Below, piece by piece: positions 1,769 through 15,418 of a stretch of DNA of 37,992 nucleotides; position 1 is the stretch's first letter, and each line of letters begins with the position of its first letter. The stretch spans positions 1-37,992 of the forward strand of contig JAITTF010000329.1 in NCBI GenBank assembly GCA_031287215.1, read 5' to 3'. A model generated the notes under the pieces. The model had not been told where the DNA came from and did not search any database. It saw nothing but the letters and a program-made list of their open reading frames with translations. This stretch comes from Bacteroidales bacterium (lineage in GTDB: Bacteria > Bacteroidota > Bacteroidia > Bacteroidales > WCHB1-69). Both the position numbers and the translations under genes were made by a program.

Positions 1769-3379
1769 TTATTTGATACGAACCGTAATGTTAGGAATAT
1801 TTCTACTTCCTGCTGATGAAGATACTTTGATATCTTCAAACCAAATTGTAGTCCCCGGAGCAGCACTATTGATTTTTCTAACAAGTTCATCAGAAAATCT
1901 ACCGCCTGAAATTGCCATTGCAGGCTCCTCCATACCTCTAACTTGGAAAATAACGCGGAATGAAATTACCGTCCATTTTAAGTCATATACAAAATCTTGT
2001 CCCATAGTAGCAATAAGTTGCGGAGTAGCAACCAATTCTGCTTTATTTCTCTTACCACCGGTAATATTACCTCCAATAGACACTTGAGGAGATGGAACCT
2101 GTTTAACACGAAATTCAGTAGTTCCTAAAGTTTGTGTTTTTCCACCAATTTCTCCTGTAACTGTACAAGTAACCGGTTTTCCCACTTGTGAAGAGGGAAC
2201 TGTAACCATATATTTACCATTGCCAATTTTCGTAGCGGTACATCCCGGAATTGAGAGTGATAATTTTGAAGGGTCAACGGCAGCAGAGATAGAAACCGGA
2301 TTTTCAATGCCGGAATAGAAAACATTCATTTTATCTGCAGCTACGGTAGCTGATGGAGCTAAGACGGTATATTTATCTTTAAAACCGTAAGGTTCGTAGG
2401 TACCGTCAGGTCTTTTTACTTTTATTAAACCTGCATAACGTTGGTCTCCTTCACTACCTGCCGGTAATCTAAGTTTCACAACGCCATCAATACCGTCTAA
2501 ACGGGTAGCCGAACCTAAATCAGCTTCTCTAAGTGTATCAACACCCATTTTATAATATACTTCCGGTGTAGATTTAGAATCGTAAGCAGCTACAATAATG
2601 TCGGCTTCATACGTTTCACCTCTAAAGACCATTCGTGTTTCAGGTATGGTTTTCCCTTTTACTACATCAAATTTAAAGTCATCACCCGAAATGCCGGCAA
2701 TAATCTGTTTCAATACCATGGATTCGGCATTTTTTACTTCACCTTCTATTTTATTCATCAAGGTAACGCACGCAATTAAGATAGAGTGGTCAAAGTTATG
2801 CGTTTCCCAACTCTCTACTTCGCCATCTGAATTATAATATTTACCATCTACATCTAATCCAAGATAGTTTCCAATTTGAGAACTGACTTTGTCAGGTAAA
2901 AGAGCTAAAATTGAACTTTTATAGGTAATCAGTTTAGTCTTCAATTTTTCAGCATTTTTTTCATTGATAAAATACCTTGAAGAGGCACTCCAATCATCTT
3001 TACTTTCTATCTCTTTTGCACTTTTGAGTTGTCCTTCTTTATTAAGGTCGGTTTTATCAGCTTCTTTAAGCAATTCAGACTTCATAGTTTCAATAAAAGA
3101 AATCATTGCTTCACTTTCATTTTTCAATTGTTGCGCTTTTTTAAAGGCATCGCCCACTTTTGCTTCTCCGAAAAGGAGTTGTTGCCTTTCTATAAAGGAG
3201 TAATCAGAAGTGATAGTAGCATCAATGTTTTTGTTGGAATTGACTAAGGTCTCATCTACAACCACAAAAGCGTTAAGAATATCTTTAGATACATTTAATG
3301 CCAACATAGCGGTAAGCACTAAATACATCATTCCAATCATACGTTGTCGCGGGGTTTCCGGACAATTTGTTGCGCCCAT
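1769..3379 (-). CDS. gldM: Gliding motility / type IX secretion protein GldM (PorM)
   Basis: N-terminus MGATNCPETPRQRMIGMMYLVLTAMLALNVSKDILNAFVVVDETL is typical GldM; adjacent to gldL and gldK; 536 aa. Confidence 0.95.
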   Translation of the reverse strand: MGATNCPETPRQRMIGMMYLVLTAMLALNVSKDILNAFVVVDETLVNSNKNIDATITSDYSFIERQQLLFGEAKVGDAFKKAQQLKNESEAMISFIETMKSELLKEADKTDLNKEGQLKSAKEIESKDDWSASSRYFINEKNAEKLKTKLITYKSSILALLPDKVSSQIGNYLGLDVDGKYYNSDGEVESWETHNFDHSILIACVTLMNKIEGEVKNAESMVLKQIIAGISGDDFKFDVVKGKTIPETRMVFRGETYEADIIVAAYDSKSTPEVYYKMGVDTLREADLGSATRLDGIDGVVKLRLPAGSEGDQRYAGLIKVKRPDGTYEPYGFKDKYTVLAPSATVAADKMNVFYSGIENPVSISAAVDPSKLSLSIPGCTATKIGNGKYMVTVPSSQVGKPVTCTVTGEIGGKTQTLGTTEFRVKQVPSPQVSIGGNITGGKRNKAELVATPQLIATMGQDFVYDLKWTVISFRVIFQVRGMEEPAMAISGGRFSDELVRKINSAAPGTTIWFEDIKVSSSAGSRNIPNITVRIK

Positions 3380-3420
3380 ACTCTTTCCTTTTTTAAATTA
3401 AGTTTTTTATTCTTGATTAA

Positions 3421-4302
3421 TTATGCCTTAGTGCTAAGACTCATTGCTGCAACCATATTACCATAAACATTGCTTAATTGTGCAATATTCTTGCTCAATT
3501 TATCTACCTCTTCTTTGTATTTAGCAGTATTTTCCGCAGATGATTTGAGGTTTTCTTCAATATTTTTGAAGTTTTCGATCATCATCTGAGAATTTTTGCT
3601 TTGCATTTCATACATCGTATTGATAGAAGAGAGATTTTGATTTAATTTAACCAATTCATCACTATAAGAAGGACCTGCAGTTTTCATCAAATCAGTAGTT
3701 TTCTGGTAAACAGCTGCGAGGTCTTCAACTGCTTCACTGGCTTTCTTAACGTTGAACATATATTCTTCTGTAAAATTGTGGTCATTTGACAACAGATCAG
3801 AAGTTTTGTCATATTGTAAAGATAAATTGCGAACAGATTCAGCAGCTTTAGCAAGACTCGACGTATAACTATCTGTAACAACAGCTGCATCAGAGGTTGC
3901 GGATAATTTTTGAGCATTTTCGCTAAGATTGCGCATGCCAGTAGCCAAACTCTCGATCAATTCAGGACCAATTTTAGCTTCTGTAAGCATTTGATCTAAT
4001 TGTTGTGTTGGGCTTCCCGAAGCAACTGCTTTTCTAACTTTTGTTGCTACCGGTTGGTCATCTCCTAATGCTAATTCAGGATAAATTAATTCCCATTTGT
4101 AGTTTACATGTAGTGGTTCAAAAGCTGAAAAGAAGAAAATGATAGCTTCTGTTGCCATTCCAGCTGTTAACATAACGCCAGCAAGGTTCCAGTGTTGAAT
4201 TTTAAATAAAGCGCCGATAATAACTAAAGCAGCTCCCCATCCATACAAGTAGGACATAAATTTTTTATACCCTTTACTTCTTACTAAATTGTAGATTCCC
4301 AT
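3421..4302 (-). CDS. gldL: Gliding motility / type IX secretion protein GldL (PorL)
   Basis: Two N-terminal TM segments (YGWGAALVIIGALFKIQHWNLAGVMLTAGMATEAIIFFFSAFEP) and coiled-coil C-terminus; located between gldK and gldM. Confidence 0.95.
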   Translation of the reverse strand: MGIYNLVRSKGYKKFMSYLYGWGAALVIIGALFKIQHWNLAGVMLTAGMATEAIIFFFSAFEPLHVNYKWELIYPELALGDDQPVATKVRKAVASGSPTQQLDQMLTEAKIGPELIESLATGMRNLSENAQKLSATSDAAVVTDSYTSSLAKAAESVRNLSLQYDKTSDLLSNDHNFTEEYMFNVKKASEAVEDLAAVYQKTTDLMKTAGPSYSDELVKLNQNLSSINTMYEMQSKNSQMMIENFKNIEENLKSSAENTAKYKEEVDKLSKNIAQLSNVYGNMVAAMSLSTKA

Positions 4303-9637: not shown

Positions 9638-9793
9638 ACAAAACAAGTAATAGAGGTTAATTTTTCACCGTTTTTCTATAGAGATCCCCAAAAACAAAAG
9701 AACCTAAAAAATCATGAAATAACACGTTTTTTTATAAAAAAACACGTGCAAAAAAAAAGTTTCAAAAACTTCCTTTTTTTCATTAAAATACTT

Positions 9794-9801
9794 TATTTTT
9801 G
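9794..9801 (+). promoter_or_regulatory. Candidate -7 element (TATTTTTG) for rnfB
   Basis: TATTTTTGCACTAAC about 29 nt upstream of ATG 9830. Confidence 0.55.
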
Positions 9802-9829
9802 CACTAACAAAATTAAAGTATTATATTTT

Positions 9830-10696
9830 ATGCAAAGTATCATTTATGCAGCGGTGATTTTAGGTATTATTGCCCTGATTGCTGCAGTTATTCTCCATTT
9901 TGTTTCGAAAGCATTTCAGGTCATTGAAGACCCCAGAATTGACGATGTTGCTTCCATTTTGCCGGGCGCAAACTGCGGAGGTTGTGGCTTTGCCGGTTGT
10001 AGAAACTTGGCAGAAGCTATCGTTAAAGCTGGTACTTTAGAAGGGTTCGGTTGCCCCGCCGGCGGGAGTAGTGTGAATGAAGGTATCGCACAAGTCTTAG
10101 GACTAAATGCCGTAATGATGAATCCTATCATTGCTGTGGTTAGATGTAACGGATCCCTTGAAAATGCTCCCTCACAATCTTCGTATGATGGTGCCCCTTC
10201 GTGTGCTTTCGCTTCTTCGCTTTATGCAGGTGAAAGTATGTGTAGCTGCGGATGCTTAGGGTACGGAGATTGTATGAAAGTATGCAATTTTGATGCGCTC
10301 TCAATTGACCCTAATACCAAATTGCCGGTAGTGGATAACGAAAAATGTGTGGCTTGTGGTGCTTGTGCTAAAGCTTGCCCCAGATTGCTGATAGAAATGA
10401 GATTTAAAGGTAAAAAAGACCGTAGAATTTTTGTCGCATGTCGTAATATCGATAAAGGGGCTGCCGCTAAGAAAAATTGCCAAGTGGCTTGTATCGGCTG
10501 CGGAAAATGCCTTAAAGTTTGCGAATTTGATGCTATTACGATTGCAAATAATCTTGCCTATATTGATCATACAAAATGTAAACTTTGTAGAAAATGCGTC
10601 TCCGAATGCCCAGCAAACGCTATTTGCGAGTGCAATTTTCCTCCAAAAAAGGACAAAATTGAACTCGCCCAAGAAACTCAATTTGTTAATAATTAA
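9830..10696 (+). CDS. rnfB: Rnf electron transport complex subunit B (ferredoxin-like)
   Basis: LPGANCGGCGFAGCRNLAEAIVKAG plus multiple 4Fe-4S motifs (CVACGACAKACP, CIGCGKCLKVCEFDAI, CKLCRKCVSECP); start trimmed to 9830 because the longer ORF reads through the promoter. Confidence 0.94.
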   Translation: MQSIIYAAVILGIIALIAAVILHFVSKAFQVIEDPRIDDVASILPGANCGGCGFAGCRNLAEAIVKAGTLEGFGCPAGGSSVNEGIAQVLGLNAVMMNPIIAVVRCNGSLENAPSQSSYDGAPSCAFASSLYAGESMCSCGCLGYGDCMKVCNFDALSIDPNTKLPVVDNEKCVACGACAKACPRLLIEMRFKGKKDRRIFVACRNIDKGAAAKKNCQVACIGCGKCLKVCEFDAITIANNLAYIDHTKCKLCRKCVSECPANAICECNFPPKKDKIELAQETQFVNN

Positions 10697-10711
10697 TCAT
10701 CTTATTTTATT

Positions 10712-12040
10712 ATGATTACTTTTAAAAAGGGGGGTGTCCATCCCCAAGAAAATAAAATTACATCTCAAATTGCTATCGAAAACTTTCCGATACCTCAACA
10801 AGTAGTGGTCTTTTTAGGGCAACACCTCGGAGTGCCGGCAGTAGCTAAAGTTAGTAAAGGTGATAAAGTAAAAACCGGACAACTGATTGCTGCCGGAGAA
10901 GCCTTTATCTCAGCTAATATTCATGCTCCCGTTTCCGGAATCGTTACAAAAGTAGATGTTATCCCTGATATCTCCGGCATCAAAAAAGAGGCTATCGTCA
11001 TCGCTACGGAAGGCGACGAATGGGAAGATACCATTGATACCTCTTCAACAATTAATGATAAAATTGAACTCGATAAAGATGAAATTATCGACAGAATTAA
11101 ATCTTGCGGTATCGTAGGTCTTGGTGGTGCCTGTTTCCCTACTCACATCAAATACAAAACCCCTCCGAGAAAACAGGTGGATTATTTGATCATAAATGCT
11201 GCCGAATGTGAACCCTATATTACAGCTGATGACCGAATGATGATCGAACACGGCGAAGAGTGCCTCATCGGTATCGAAGCCCTGCTGATTGCCTCAAAAG
11301 CACCGGTCGTTTACGTGGGTATTGAAAATAATAAAAAAAATGCTATCGCTCACCTGACTCAATTGGCAGACAAAAAGCATCCCAAAATAAAAATTTGTCC
11401 CCTAAAAGTCAAATATCCCCAAGGTGCCGAAAAACAACTCGTTCAAGCGCTTACTAATAGACACGTGCCGGCAGGAAAATTGCCAATTGAGATAGGAGTT
11501 ATTGTGAATAATATTACTACTGCTTTTGCAGTTTATGAAGCCGTCCAAAAAAATAAACCGCTCATAGATACCTATACTACTATTTCCGGAAAAAAAGTTG
11601 CTCATCCTAAAAATTTAAAAATTAGAATCGGTACACCGATCAATGAAGTCTTAAATTTCGTAGGTATTCCGGAAAATACCGGAAAAATTATCTCCGGCGG
11701 TCCCATGATGGGCAAAGCAATCGCAAATATAAATAGTTATGCCACCAAAGGTATGTCAAGCCTTTTGATGATGGATAAAACCGAAAGCCAAAGAGGGGAA
11801 GTCTCTCCTTGTTTGCGCTGCGGAAAATGCGTCTCTGTATGCCCTATGGGTTTAGAACCCCTGCTTTTGCAACCCTTTGGTGAAAAAAAACGCTATGATG
11901 AGTGTGAAGCCAATGGTATTATGAATTGCATCGAATGCGGCTCTTGCCAATTTGAATGCCCTGCAAATCGACCTCTCCTCGATTTTATACGCCTTGGAAA
12001 AGCTAAAACAGGAGAAATGATAAGAAATAGAAAAAGTTAA
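10712..12040 (+). CDS. rnfC: Rnf electron transport complex subunit C
   Basis: FKKGGVHPQENK; GLGGACFPTHIKYK; INAAECEPYITADDRMM; CLRCGKCVSVCPMGLEP; CIECGSCQFECPANRPLLDFIRLGK. Confidence 0.95.
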   Translation: MITFKKGGVHPQENKITSQIAIENFPIPQQVVVFLGQHLGVPAVAKVSKGDKVKTGQLIAAGEAFISANIHAPVSGIVTKVDVIPDISGIKKEAIVIATEGDEWEDTIDTSSTINDKIELDKDEIIDRIKSCGIVGLGGACFPTHIKYKTPPRKQVDYLIINAAECEPYITADDRMMIEHGEECLIGIEALLIASKAPVVYVGIENNKKNAIAHLTQLADKKHPKIKICPLKVKYPQGAEKQLVQALTNRHVPAGKLPIEIGVIVNNITTAFAVYEAVQKNKPLIDTYTTISGKKVAHPKNLKIRIGTPINEVLNFVGIPENTGKIISGGPMMGKAIANINSYATKGMSSLLMMDKTESQRGEVSPCLRCGKCVSVCPMGLEPLLLQPFGEKKRYDECEANGIMNCIECGSCQFECPANRPLLDFIRLGKAKTGEMIRNRKS

Positions 12041-12059: not shown

Positions 12060-14018
12060 GTGTCAGATTTTAATCCACGAAAAAATTTTGAAGAAACCCG
12101 AAAACAAATAGGTTATGTCAATCGTAAAGAGGCTACTCAAGCCGACTATGACCGCGTTGGCTTTATGTCGGGACTGGAAGTTCATCAACAATTATTGACT
12201 AAACGTAAACTCTTTTGTCGCTGTCCTGCCGGCATTTTTCAAAAAGCAGATCAATATGACGCTGAAATTGTAAGGCACATGCGCCCCACTTTGTCGGAAC
12301 TGGGAGAGTACGATGGTACCGCTCTCATGGAATTTAAAACCAGAAAAGAGATTATTTATCGCCTGATGAATAAAAATGCCTGTACCTATGAAGCTGATGA
12401 TACCCCGCCGTTTCCTATTGACCGTGAAGCACTGGAAAAAGCAATCGAGGTATCTCTGGCAAGTAAATTAAGCATCGTGGGTGAAGTACATATTACTCGT
12501 AAACAATATCTCGATGGATCCATCCCAACCGGCTTTCAACGTACCGCTATTATTGGTATTGAAGGTTCTATCCAATTGAAAAACAAAAAAGTAAGGTTGA
12601 TACAACTCAGCCTGGAAGAAGATGCTTGTAGAGAAGTCTCTGACATTGGTCATACTCGTATCTACCGTACAGATAGATTGGGAATGCCCTTGATTGAAAC
12701 GGTTACTTATCCCGAATTTGTTAATCCAGATGAGGTAAAAGAAGGTTGCGACTATATCCGTTTCTTGAATAGAAGTACCGGGAACGTTCGTACCGGTATC
12801 GGTGCCGGTAGAGAAGATGTAAATGTGAGCTGTAAAGGGGGTACTCGTGTAGAAATTAAAGGGGTAGCTCACTCCAAATGGATACCGGAATTGACACACG
12901 TGGAGGTCTTCCGCCAATGGGCTTTGTTGGCTATTCGTGATAAATTATTACAAAGAATCCAACCGGACAATTGGAATTTAGAATTTATTGATTTAAACCC
13001 TGATCAGTTCAATTTTTATTATGATCCAGTGAAAAATGCAGTTAAACGTGGCGAAAAATTATATGCCGTTAATCTGCCCGGTTTTAAAGGTATTCTTTCC
13101 CATTTTACACAACCAGGAAAACCGTTTTATGACGAAATTACGAATAGATTGAAGGTTATAGCTTGTATAGAAAAACCTAATATGGCTACCAGTGAAGACC
13201 TCGAAGATACTATCGGTACCAATGTGTTCGAGAAAATTGGGATGATGTTTAAAGCCGTCGAAAACGATGCCCAAATGATTTTCTGGGCGCCGGAAGCAGA
13301 CGTGGAAACCGCTCTGGATGTAATTGCCGAACGGGCTAAAATGGCGTTCTGCGGTGTGCCGCAAGAAACTCGTAAATCGCTCGAAGGTGGTACTACCATC
13401 TTCGAAAGAGTGCTGCCGGGAGCAGATAGAATGTACCCCGATACTGACTCTGCTCCGATTCCTTTGGAAGCTGATTATATTGAATCTTTGAGAAAAAATG
13501 TGCCCGATGAAGTCGCAGAAAGATACGTTCAACTTAGAAATTGGGATGTTCCGGAAGACTGTTTCAACTATTTGCTAACATATAACTACTTCCCTCTTAT
13601 TGCTAAAACTGCTGCCGAATTGGAGTTGAATCCTAAATATATCGCTACTTTCTTTGGACATCAATTAAAACATTTTCATGGTCAATATAAAAAAATCCCC
13701 TTTGAGATAACAAGAATGTACGATCTTTTCTATTTCCTGAAAAACAGTGGAATAGATTTTGCTATTGCACGTAAAATGTTGAATGTCATGTTTGAACATC
13801 CTAAAATGGACTTTGAATCTATTTTAACAGTTTTAGATTTCAAAAAAAGAGACCAAAAAGAGATCGAAGACCATATCCCTTTTGTTGCGCAAAAATTTGT
13901 CGCTAAACGTCCTAAAATTAATGGTAACGACAAAAAAAATAGCATCATGGGTCAACTTAGAATTATGAGCGAAGGAAATGTAAATCTGTCAACACTGGCA
14001 CAAATTATTAAAAATTAA
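12060..14018 (+). CDS. gatE: Archaeal-type Glu-tRNA(Gln) amidotransferase subunit E
   Basis: VGFMSGLEVHQQLLTKRKLFCRCPAGIF; RHMRPTLSELGEYDGTALMEFK; LEEDACREVSD; GVPQETRKSLEGGTTIFERVLPGADRMYPDTDSAPIPL; about 650 aa (longer than GatB) and next to gatD; GTG start. Confidence 0.92.
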   Translation: MSDFNPRKNFEETRKQIGYVNRKEATQADYDRVGFMSGLEVHQQLLTKRKLFCRCPAGIFQKADQYDAEIVRHMRPTLSELGEYDGTALMEFKTRKEIIYRLMNKNACTYEADDTPPFPIDREALEKAIEVSLASKLSIVGEVHITRKQYLDGSIPTGFQRTAIIGIEGSIQLKNKKVRLIQLSLEEDACREVSDIGHTRIYRTDRLGMPLIETVTYPEFVNPDEVKEGCDYIRFLNRSTGNVRTGIGAGREDVNVSCKGGTRVEIKGVAHSKWIPELTHVEVFRQWALLAIRDKLLQRIQPDNWNLEFIDLNPDQFNFYYDPVKNAVKRGEKLYAVNLPGFKGILSHFTQPGKPFYDEITNRLKVIACIEKPNMATSEDLEDTIGTNVFEKIGMMFKAVENDAQMIFWAPEADVETALDVIAERAKMAFCGVPQETRKSLEGGTTIFERVLPGADRMYPDTDSAPIPLEADYIESLRKNVPDEVAERYVQLRNWDVPEDCFNYLLTYNYFPLIAKTAAELELNPKYIATFFGHQLKHFHGQYKKIPFEITRMYDLFYFLKNSGIDFAIARKMLNVMFEHPKMDFESILTVLDFKKRDQKEIEDHIPFVAQKFVAKRPKINGNDKKNSIMGQLRIMSEGNVNLSTLAQIIKN

Positions 14019-14032
14019 AAACGATTAATCAG

Positions 14033-15418
14033 ATGAGTGAAGAACTATTTCAGGGATATAAAGGAGAAGCATTAGAATTACTGAAAAAATATAGTGTGAG
14101 AGTGTGGGGTAGTGCAGAAGTAGAAACTACACGCGGACACTTCTCAGGTACCGTTTTGCCAAGAGCCGAAAATGATGACCATAAACATATCGTCATGAAA
14201 ATTAGTACCGGATATAATGTCGGTATTGACGTTGATACGGTGTTAAATATGACTGAAACCGGCTATAAAAAAGCTAATTATAAAATACCGGAAAAAGAAT
14301 TTCCTTACACCAAAGGCTTACCTCATGTCAAATTACTGGGAACAGGTGGTACGATCGCTTCGCGATTAGACTACAGAACAGGTGCCGTCATTCCGGCATT
14401 CTCTCCGGGAGAACTCTACGGCGCAGTACCCGAATTGGCGGATATTTGCAACCTGAGTACGGAAAAAATATTTGCCGTCTTTTCGGAAAATATGGGACCG
14501 AAACAGTATATCGCTTTAGCTAAAAAAATTGGCGAAGAGATTGAAAATGGAGTAGAAGGTATCGTCATTGGTCATGGCACAGATACACTACACCATACCG
14601 GATCCGCTCTGACCTTCATGTGCCAGAATCTGCCGGTACCGGTCGTTTTAGTGGGTTCACAACGCTCCTCAGATAGACCAAGCTCAGATGCTGCTCTCAA
14701 TCTGATGCATGCTATGACCGCCGCAGGACATGGAAATATCGCAGAAGTATTAGTCTGTATGTTTGGACCTACTTCCGATGAATATGGTTTCCTCCATAAA
14801 GGAACACGAGTTAGAAAAATGCACTCTTCGTACAGATCTACTTTCCGTACTATTGGAGATACTCCTATTGCGCGGGTTACTCGTCAAGGAGTGCAACCTA
14901 TTAAGGAAATATATAACCACCGCCGCAATGATAAAAAAGTTACGATTATCCCCACTTTTGATGACCGTGTAGCAATGCTTTACTATTATCCGGGAATGAA
15001 ACCCGATATGTTGGACGCTATCGTTGACAATGGTTATAAAGGAATTGTTTGGGTAGGAACCGGTCTTGGCCATATCAATAAAGCAATGTATCCTGCCGTT
15101 GAAAGAGCGCACACCGCCGGTGTCCATCAATTTATGACACTGCAAACCATCTGGGGTTATGTTCAAATGTTTGTCTATGATACCGGGAGAGATATGATGG
15201 CTAAAGGTATTATCCCTTGCGGAAATATGCTGCCCGAAGTAGCTTACATTAAATTAGGATGGGTTTTAGGTCAAACTAATGACCCTGAAGAAGTAAAAAG
15301 ATTGATGCTTATCCCTATTAATGACGAAATTACAGAAAGAGAACCCTATAACGGCTATTTAGTTTATCAAGGTGGATCTCCTGAAGTAGAAGAATTTATC
15401 AAAAAAGTACATAAATAA
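14033..15418 (+). CDS. gatD: Archaeal-type Glu-tRNA(Gln) amidotransferase subunit D (asparaginase-like)
   Basis: KLLGTGGTIASRLDYRTGAVIPAFSPGELYGAVPELADICNL; VIGHGTDTLHHTGSAL; VGSQRSSDRPSSDAALNLMHA; N-terminal GatD-type extension (SAEVETTRGHFSGTVLPRAENDDHKHIVMKISTGYNVGIDVDTV). Confidence 0.94.
   Translation: MSEELFQGYKGEALELLKKYSVRVWGSAEVETTRGHFSGTVLPRAENDDHKHIVMKISTGYNVGIDVDTVLNMTETGYKKANYKIPEKEFPYTKGLPHVKLLGTGGTIASRLDYRTGAVIPAFSPGELYGAVPELADICNLSTEKIFAVFSENMGPKQYIALAKKIGEEIENGVEGIVIGHGTDTLHHTGSALTFMCQNLPVPVVLVGSQRSSDRPSSDAALNLMHAMTAAGHGNIAEVLVCMFGPTSDEYGFLHKGTRVRKMHSSYRSTFRTIGDTPIARVTRQGVQPIKEIYNHRRNDKKVTIIPTFDDRVAMLYYYPGMKPDMLDAIVDNGYKGIVWVGTGLGHINKAMYPAVERAHTAGVHQFMTLQTIWGYVQMFVYDTGRDMMAKGIIPCGNMLPEVAYIKLGWVLGQTNDPEEVKRLMLIPINDEITEREPYNGYLVYQGGSPEVEEFIKKVHK

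Follow-up and report, generated by a model that had tools for sequence, protein, structure and literature searches.

The window, i.e. the whole stretch of DNA that was analysed (37,992 nucleotides), carries two adjacent genes on the same strand:

12060 to 14018, forward strand: gatE, subunit E of a Glu-tRNA(Gln) amidotransferase, 652 amino acids, GTG start (TIGR00134, PF02934, PDB 2d6f/1zq1, AlphaFold/Foldseek)
14019 to 14032, no strand: gap of 14 nucleotides between gatE and gatD (ORF coordinates)
14033 to 15418, forward strand: gatD, subunit D of a Glu-tRNA(Gln) amidotransferase, amidase/asparaginase-like, 461 amino acids, ATG start (TIGR02153, PF18195, PF00710, PF17763, PDB 2d6f_A/1zq1_A)

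The earlier note had read these frames as a GatE-GatD pair, 14 nucleotides apart, on a Bacteroidota chromosome. This assignment was correct; both frames are full-length, and curated models and PDB matches agreed. GatE matched the gatE_arch model TIGR00134 with 399 bits (cut-off 319.55; E 3e-119; residues 29-641) and contained the Pfam domain GatB_N (PF02934). A second model, NF003107, was matched with 449.4 bits, slightly below its cut-off of 456. The closest relatives in the PDB were GatE from Methanothermobacter (2d6f) and Pyrococcus (1zq1). GatD scored 494.7 bits against TIGR02153 gatD_arch (cut-off 324), was also matched by TIGR00519 and comprised the Pfam domains GatD_N (PF18195, 41.7 versus 25.7 bits), Asparaginase (PF00710) and Asparaginase_C (PF17763). 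In the PDB, 2d6f_A (E 1e-114) and 1zq1_A (E 2e-110) were closest with asparaginases far behind. The catalytic core of GatD is homologous to type I L-asparaginases; GatD differs from them by the GatD_N domain, by a much higher gatD_arch score and by adjoining gatE.

The two genes probably form an operon. The pair was found again in dozens of independent genomes from gut, marine and sediment bacteria, cultured isolates included, and thus represents neither chance nor contamination. In most bacterial loci gatD lies directly 3' of gatE. It was the only conserved neighbour of gatE across the bacterial loci, and none hinted at another pathway. Here, rnfB and rnfC (9746-12040) are followed by gatE and not by rnfD/G/E/A, i.e. 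the usual order of the rnf operon is broken; rnfC 5' of gatE was confined to the same genus.

The GatE protein (652 amino acids) is divided as follows:

residues about 36-300 and 431-470: cradle domain
residues about 301-430: AspRS-like insertion
residues about 471-652: helical/tail domain

The AlphaFold model of GatE (pLDDT 82.4) had its best Foldseek matches in 2d6f_D and 1zq1_C (E 1e-38); thus, the predicted fold is that of archaeal GatE. The AspRS-like insertion and the tail domain were both kept at archaeal length. The motifs GLExH, EED, RxDxN and RxExK, which we take to be the catalytic ATP/Mg-site motifs, were invariant in the alignment of bacterial and archaeal GatE. The catalytic Thr, Thr, Asp and Lys of GatD (101/177/178/254 in Methanothermobacter) occurred in nearly every one of 95 bacterial proteins and in 31/31 archaeal ones. 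They are retained in the GatD of the host genome, in which all tested catalytic residues of GatDE are intact. Between two Labilibaculum genomes dN/dS was 0.072 for GatE and 0.037 for GatD; both proteins are under purifying selection. Conservation was uneven along GatE. The identity of the cradle domain was 75% within one bacterial subfamily (A) and 81% within another (B, both described below), and 41-42% to archaea. The helical/tail domain, which in archaeal GatE contacts the tRNA, was 37% identical within subfamily A and 15% between subfamily A and archaea, and the archaeal C-terminal RGxADGK-type motif was replaced by SxGNxxL in subfamily A. This suggests that in bacterial GatE the chemistry was conserved and the tRNA contacts were changed.

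We then asked with which tRNA-charging enzymes GatDE coexists. The host genome is a Bacteroidales-related bin of 2.44 Mb (88.7% complete). It encodes a complete GlnRS of 542 amino acids (TIGR00440, 748 bits, cut-off 425.8) as well as GluRS, AsnRS and AspRS; a search for GatB with PF02934 in this 88.7% complete genome returned GatE as the sole match. In 41 relatives 23 matches for GatE were obtained at E 0.001. One of them (G037) was GatB, leaving 22 GatE-positive genomes, 21 of which have GlnRS. In the rest of the phylum, 34 genomes were followed where PF02934 matches suggested GatE. GatE was present in 30 of these, 27 of them with GlnRS. The GatE-positive bacterial genomes behind named records had GlnRS in 27 of 28 cases. 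The three sets overlap slightly. GlnRS and GluRS were separated by extent of the match and frame length, with confirmation by a curated model for the host genome only. The counts are based on draft genomes, in which absences can be assembly gaps because one of them (G005) misses GlnRS, GatE and GatB together. Marinifilum flexuosum DSM 21950, Labilibaculum euxinus, Labilibaculum sp. K2S and Perlabentimonas gracilis all have GatE, GlnRS and GluRS and no GatB. At the position equivalent to R358 of Thermus GluRS, arginine was present in GatE-positive and GatE-negative genomes and also in genomes without GlnRS, so this marker does not discriminate. The host genome contains a second, bacterial-type GluRS of 485 amino acids (G000:C317:516-1970, L098), directly followed by a tRNA-Glu(CTC) (C317:2025-2096, L089). 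Among the 41 relatives no other had an equally clear extra copy; the second GluRS could be a true second copy or binned contamination.

The tRNAs were of the bacterial type. Both host tRNA-Gln genes have U1-A72 and A73, and all tRNA-Gln(TTG) read from relatives had U1-A72, GatE present or not. Some tRNA-Gln(TTG) were 97% identical between GatE-positive and GatE-negative genomes, and no difference at 1-72 or 73 was found between the two groups. Among 30 tRNA loci read in the host genome, U1-A72 was limited to tRNA-Gln and tRNA-Asn (the pair in tRNA-Asn was assigned by eye). Archaeal GatDE uses A1-U72 and the D-loop of tRNA-Gln (PMC9499178). Inspection of the tRNA-Gln identity elements, as suggested in the earlier note, thus did not uncover the archaeal signal. 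Because this element is absent, a functional bacterial GatDE must read something else. The discriminator base 73 of tRNA-Gln is A in the host genome (G000:C282:165-236 and G000:C29:45185-45256) and likewise in GatE-negative relatives; G73 is listed for bacterial tRNA-Gln identity (PMC9976931).

What does GatDE do in a cell which has GlnRS? We consider the chances about evenly balanced that the pair is a genuine bacterial GatDE which provides a second or a repair route to Gln-tRNA. Of the explanations considered this is the most likely one because the cell has GlnRS and GatB was not detected in the host genome. Judged from the family, GatD would hydrolyse glutamine (or asparagine), and the ammonia would be channelled to GatE. 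With ATP, GatE would activate the side-chain carboxylate of mis-acylated glutamyl-tRNA by phosphorylation and then amidate it. Glu-tRNA(Gln) originating from misacylation by GluRS would be converted to Gln-tRNA(Gln), the most economical role since GlnRS is present. Instead of the archaeal A1-U72 signal, GatDE would now recognize a bacterial U1-A72 tRNA. Tentatively, and with a chance which we put somewhat short of even, this may be generalized: an old, bacteria-specific GatDE in several phyla would read U1-A72 tRNAs and, in parallel to GlnRS, provide a second route by tRNA-dependent amidation.

Another substrate is conceivable because the tail domain is only 15% identical to that of archaea and the RGxADGK-type motif is replaced. 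Thus, GatDE may have moved to a different amide-forming task, acting on a carboxylate other than that of a tRNA or on a tRNA outside translation, with nothing but the catalytic chemistry kept. The coexistence with GlnRS and the divergence of tail and insertion domains next to a highly conserved catalytic core fit such a move. So does the patchy distribution: several relatives at 96-99% completeness lack the pair, hence it is dispensable. However, all GatE domains, including the tail, were retained in length, the predicted fold matches that of a GatE solved with tRNA, and beyond gatD no conserved neighbours point to another pathway. We consider this possible, but rather unlikely.

Less probable still is that GatDE amidates Asp-tRNA(Asn), either alone or in addition to Glu-tRNA(Gln), for tRNA-dependent asparagine synthesis. 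That tRNA-Asn shares U1-A72 exclusively with tRNA-Gln among the tRNAs read would agree with this, as would the requirement of bacterial GatCAB for U1-A72 on tRNA-Asn (PMC4206432) and the many GatE-positive genomes without GatB. Yet AsnRS is encoded in the host genome and matches of AsnRS size were present in nearly all relatives; furthermore, archaeal GatDE is described as a Glu-tRNA(Gln) enzyme (PMC9499178).

That GatDE was acquired instead of GlnRS and, as is the case in archaea, provides most of the Gln-tRNA(Gln) had been proposed in the earlier note, and the family identity of GatE and GatD would be in line with it. The complete GlnRS in the same genome and in nearly all other GatE-positive bacteria contradicts this. 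Further, four GatE-positive genomes in which GlnRS was undetected (G032 among the relatives, G328, G354 and G292 in the rest of the phylum) all carry GatB; G292 showed just one synthetase fragment and counts only tentatively. A single GatE-positive assembly from goat reticulum, the exception among the named records (G452), showed neither GlnRS nor GatB, yet at 1.4 Mb this bin is probably incomplete. For the host genome replacement of GlnRS is refuted unless its GlnRS is inactive, and in general we regard it as highly improbable. The combination which the earlier note had named as speaking against its proposal was encountered in part: the GlnRS route is present, the loss of catalytic residues in GatDE is not. 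In G328 and G354 (GatE loci L177 and L184) two amidotransferases exist side by side with GlnRS undetected.

The origin of the bacterial GatDE was examined in a GatE tree rooted with GatB (24 archaeal and 44 bacterial rows). Archaeal GatE formed one group and bacterial GatE another (94% SH-aLRT). Thus, in the comparison with archaeal homologues which had been called for, bacterial GatE was placed beside and not inside the archaeal group sampled. Subfamily A comprises Bacteroidales, Marinifilaceae, Tenuifilaceae and further bins, among them some labelled Cloacimonadota, Zixibacteria and Aminicenantes, subfamily B other Bacteroidota lineages; the two also occur in bins of Cloacimonadota, Zixibacteria, Aminicenantes and Calditrichota. 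Bins of Archangium sp. and Planctomycetota with GatE may be misbinned. One strongly diverged bacterial GatE (L196, G386; 37% identical to the host GatE) lay outside both subfamilies. The query of the contig scan was a chimera of a Methanothermobacter N-terminal and a host C-terminal part, designed to draw archaeal and bacterial matches; identities to it are not meaningful and were recomputed from the proteins. In a plasmid collection we found GatB matches and only one GatE-like stretch, on an archaeal megaplasmid (Natrinema thermotolerans, CP031304.1; L136, about 3001-3966). There, a frame of 481 amino acids without an annotated gene was 56% identical to Methanothermobacter GatE over 321 amino acids, possibly a degraded second GatE.

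Within the family the distances of GatE and GluRS correlated (r 0.49, permutation p 0.0004); this points to predominantly vertical inheritance, with losses. On the weakly resolved GluRS tree the presence of GatE changed at least nine times. By these sequence data the host genome did not acquire GatDE locally. Reviews describe GatDE as archaeal (PMC9499178, PMC8007984), which would favour recent acquisition from archaea or contaminating archaeal or other foreign DNA without a stable role; but the occurrence throughout the host genus and widely in its family, in cultured isolates and in more than one phylum, the purifying selection, the separate branch at an identity of about 30-35% to archaeal GatE and the correlation with GluRS refute this, and we view it as the least probable explanation of all. 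A deep, ancient transfer is still conceivable because the archaeal side of the tree was made up of a single phylum plus Pyrococcus plus one fragment from a haloarchaeon; the sample did not extend to Thermoproteota, Asgard or DPANN archaea.

Taken as a genuine GatDE, the pair shares with the archaeal enzymes from Methanothermobacter (2d6f) and Pyrococcus (1zq1) the subunits, the domain order, the catalytic residues, the overall predicted fold and, judged from the family, the chemistry. In contrast, the bacterial GatE is on its own branch with a tail domain of about 15% identity, the host tRNA-Gln has U1-A72 instead of A1-U72, and GatDE would not be the sole route to Gln-tRNA in a host with GlnRS. 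With bacterial GatCAB it has in common the cradle domain, which is homologous to GatB, and a host in which tRNA-Gln and tRNA-Asn carry the U1-A72 pair required by GatCAB. Unlike GatCAB, GatDE operates without GatA and GatC, the amidase subunit is the asparaginase-type GatD and GatE carries the AspRS-like insertion.

According to a 2022 paper the present-day occurrence of GatDE is limited to archaea (PMC9499178); the same is stated in PMC8007984. The former uses GatDE to exemplify a translation enzyme exclusive to archaea, which co-evolved with tRNA-Gln and thereby prevented archaea from taking up GlnRS. In one paper it is stated that no bacterium is known with both routes to Gln-tRNA. A table from 2013 lists COG2511 in at least 20 bacterial groups, taken to reflect lumping of GatB and GatE. 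In the open-access papers searched we found no report of a bacterial GatDE. Databases may already annotate such proteins, and subscription papers were outside this search; therefore, the bare observation is only moderately new.

Since bacterial GatDE occurs in cells with GlnRS and a U1-A72 tRNA-Gln, the two systems can coexist. If true, the use of GatDE as a second route would contradict both the restriction of GatDE to archaea and the statement that the two routes to Gln-tRNA are never combined in a bacterium. The question becomes testable in culturable bacteria such as Marinifilum, Labilibaculum and Perlabentimonas. Bacterial GatDE could reveal a quality-control route for Glu-tRNA(Gln) or an amidotransferase with a new specificity. 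It is also relevant to the question whether the common ancestor had GatDE.
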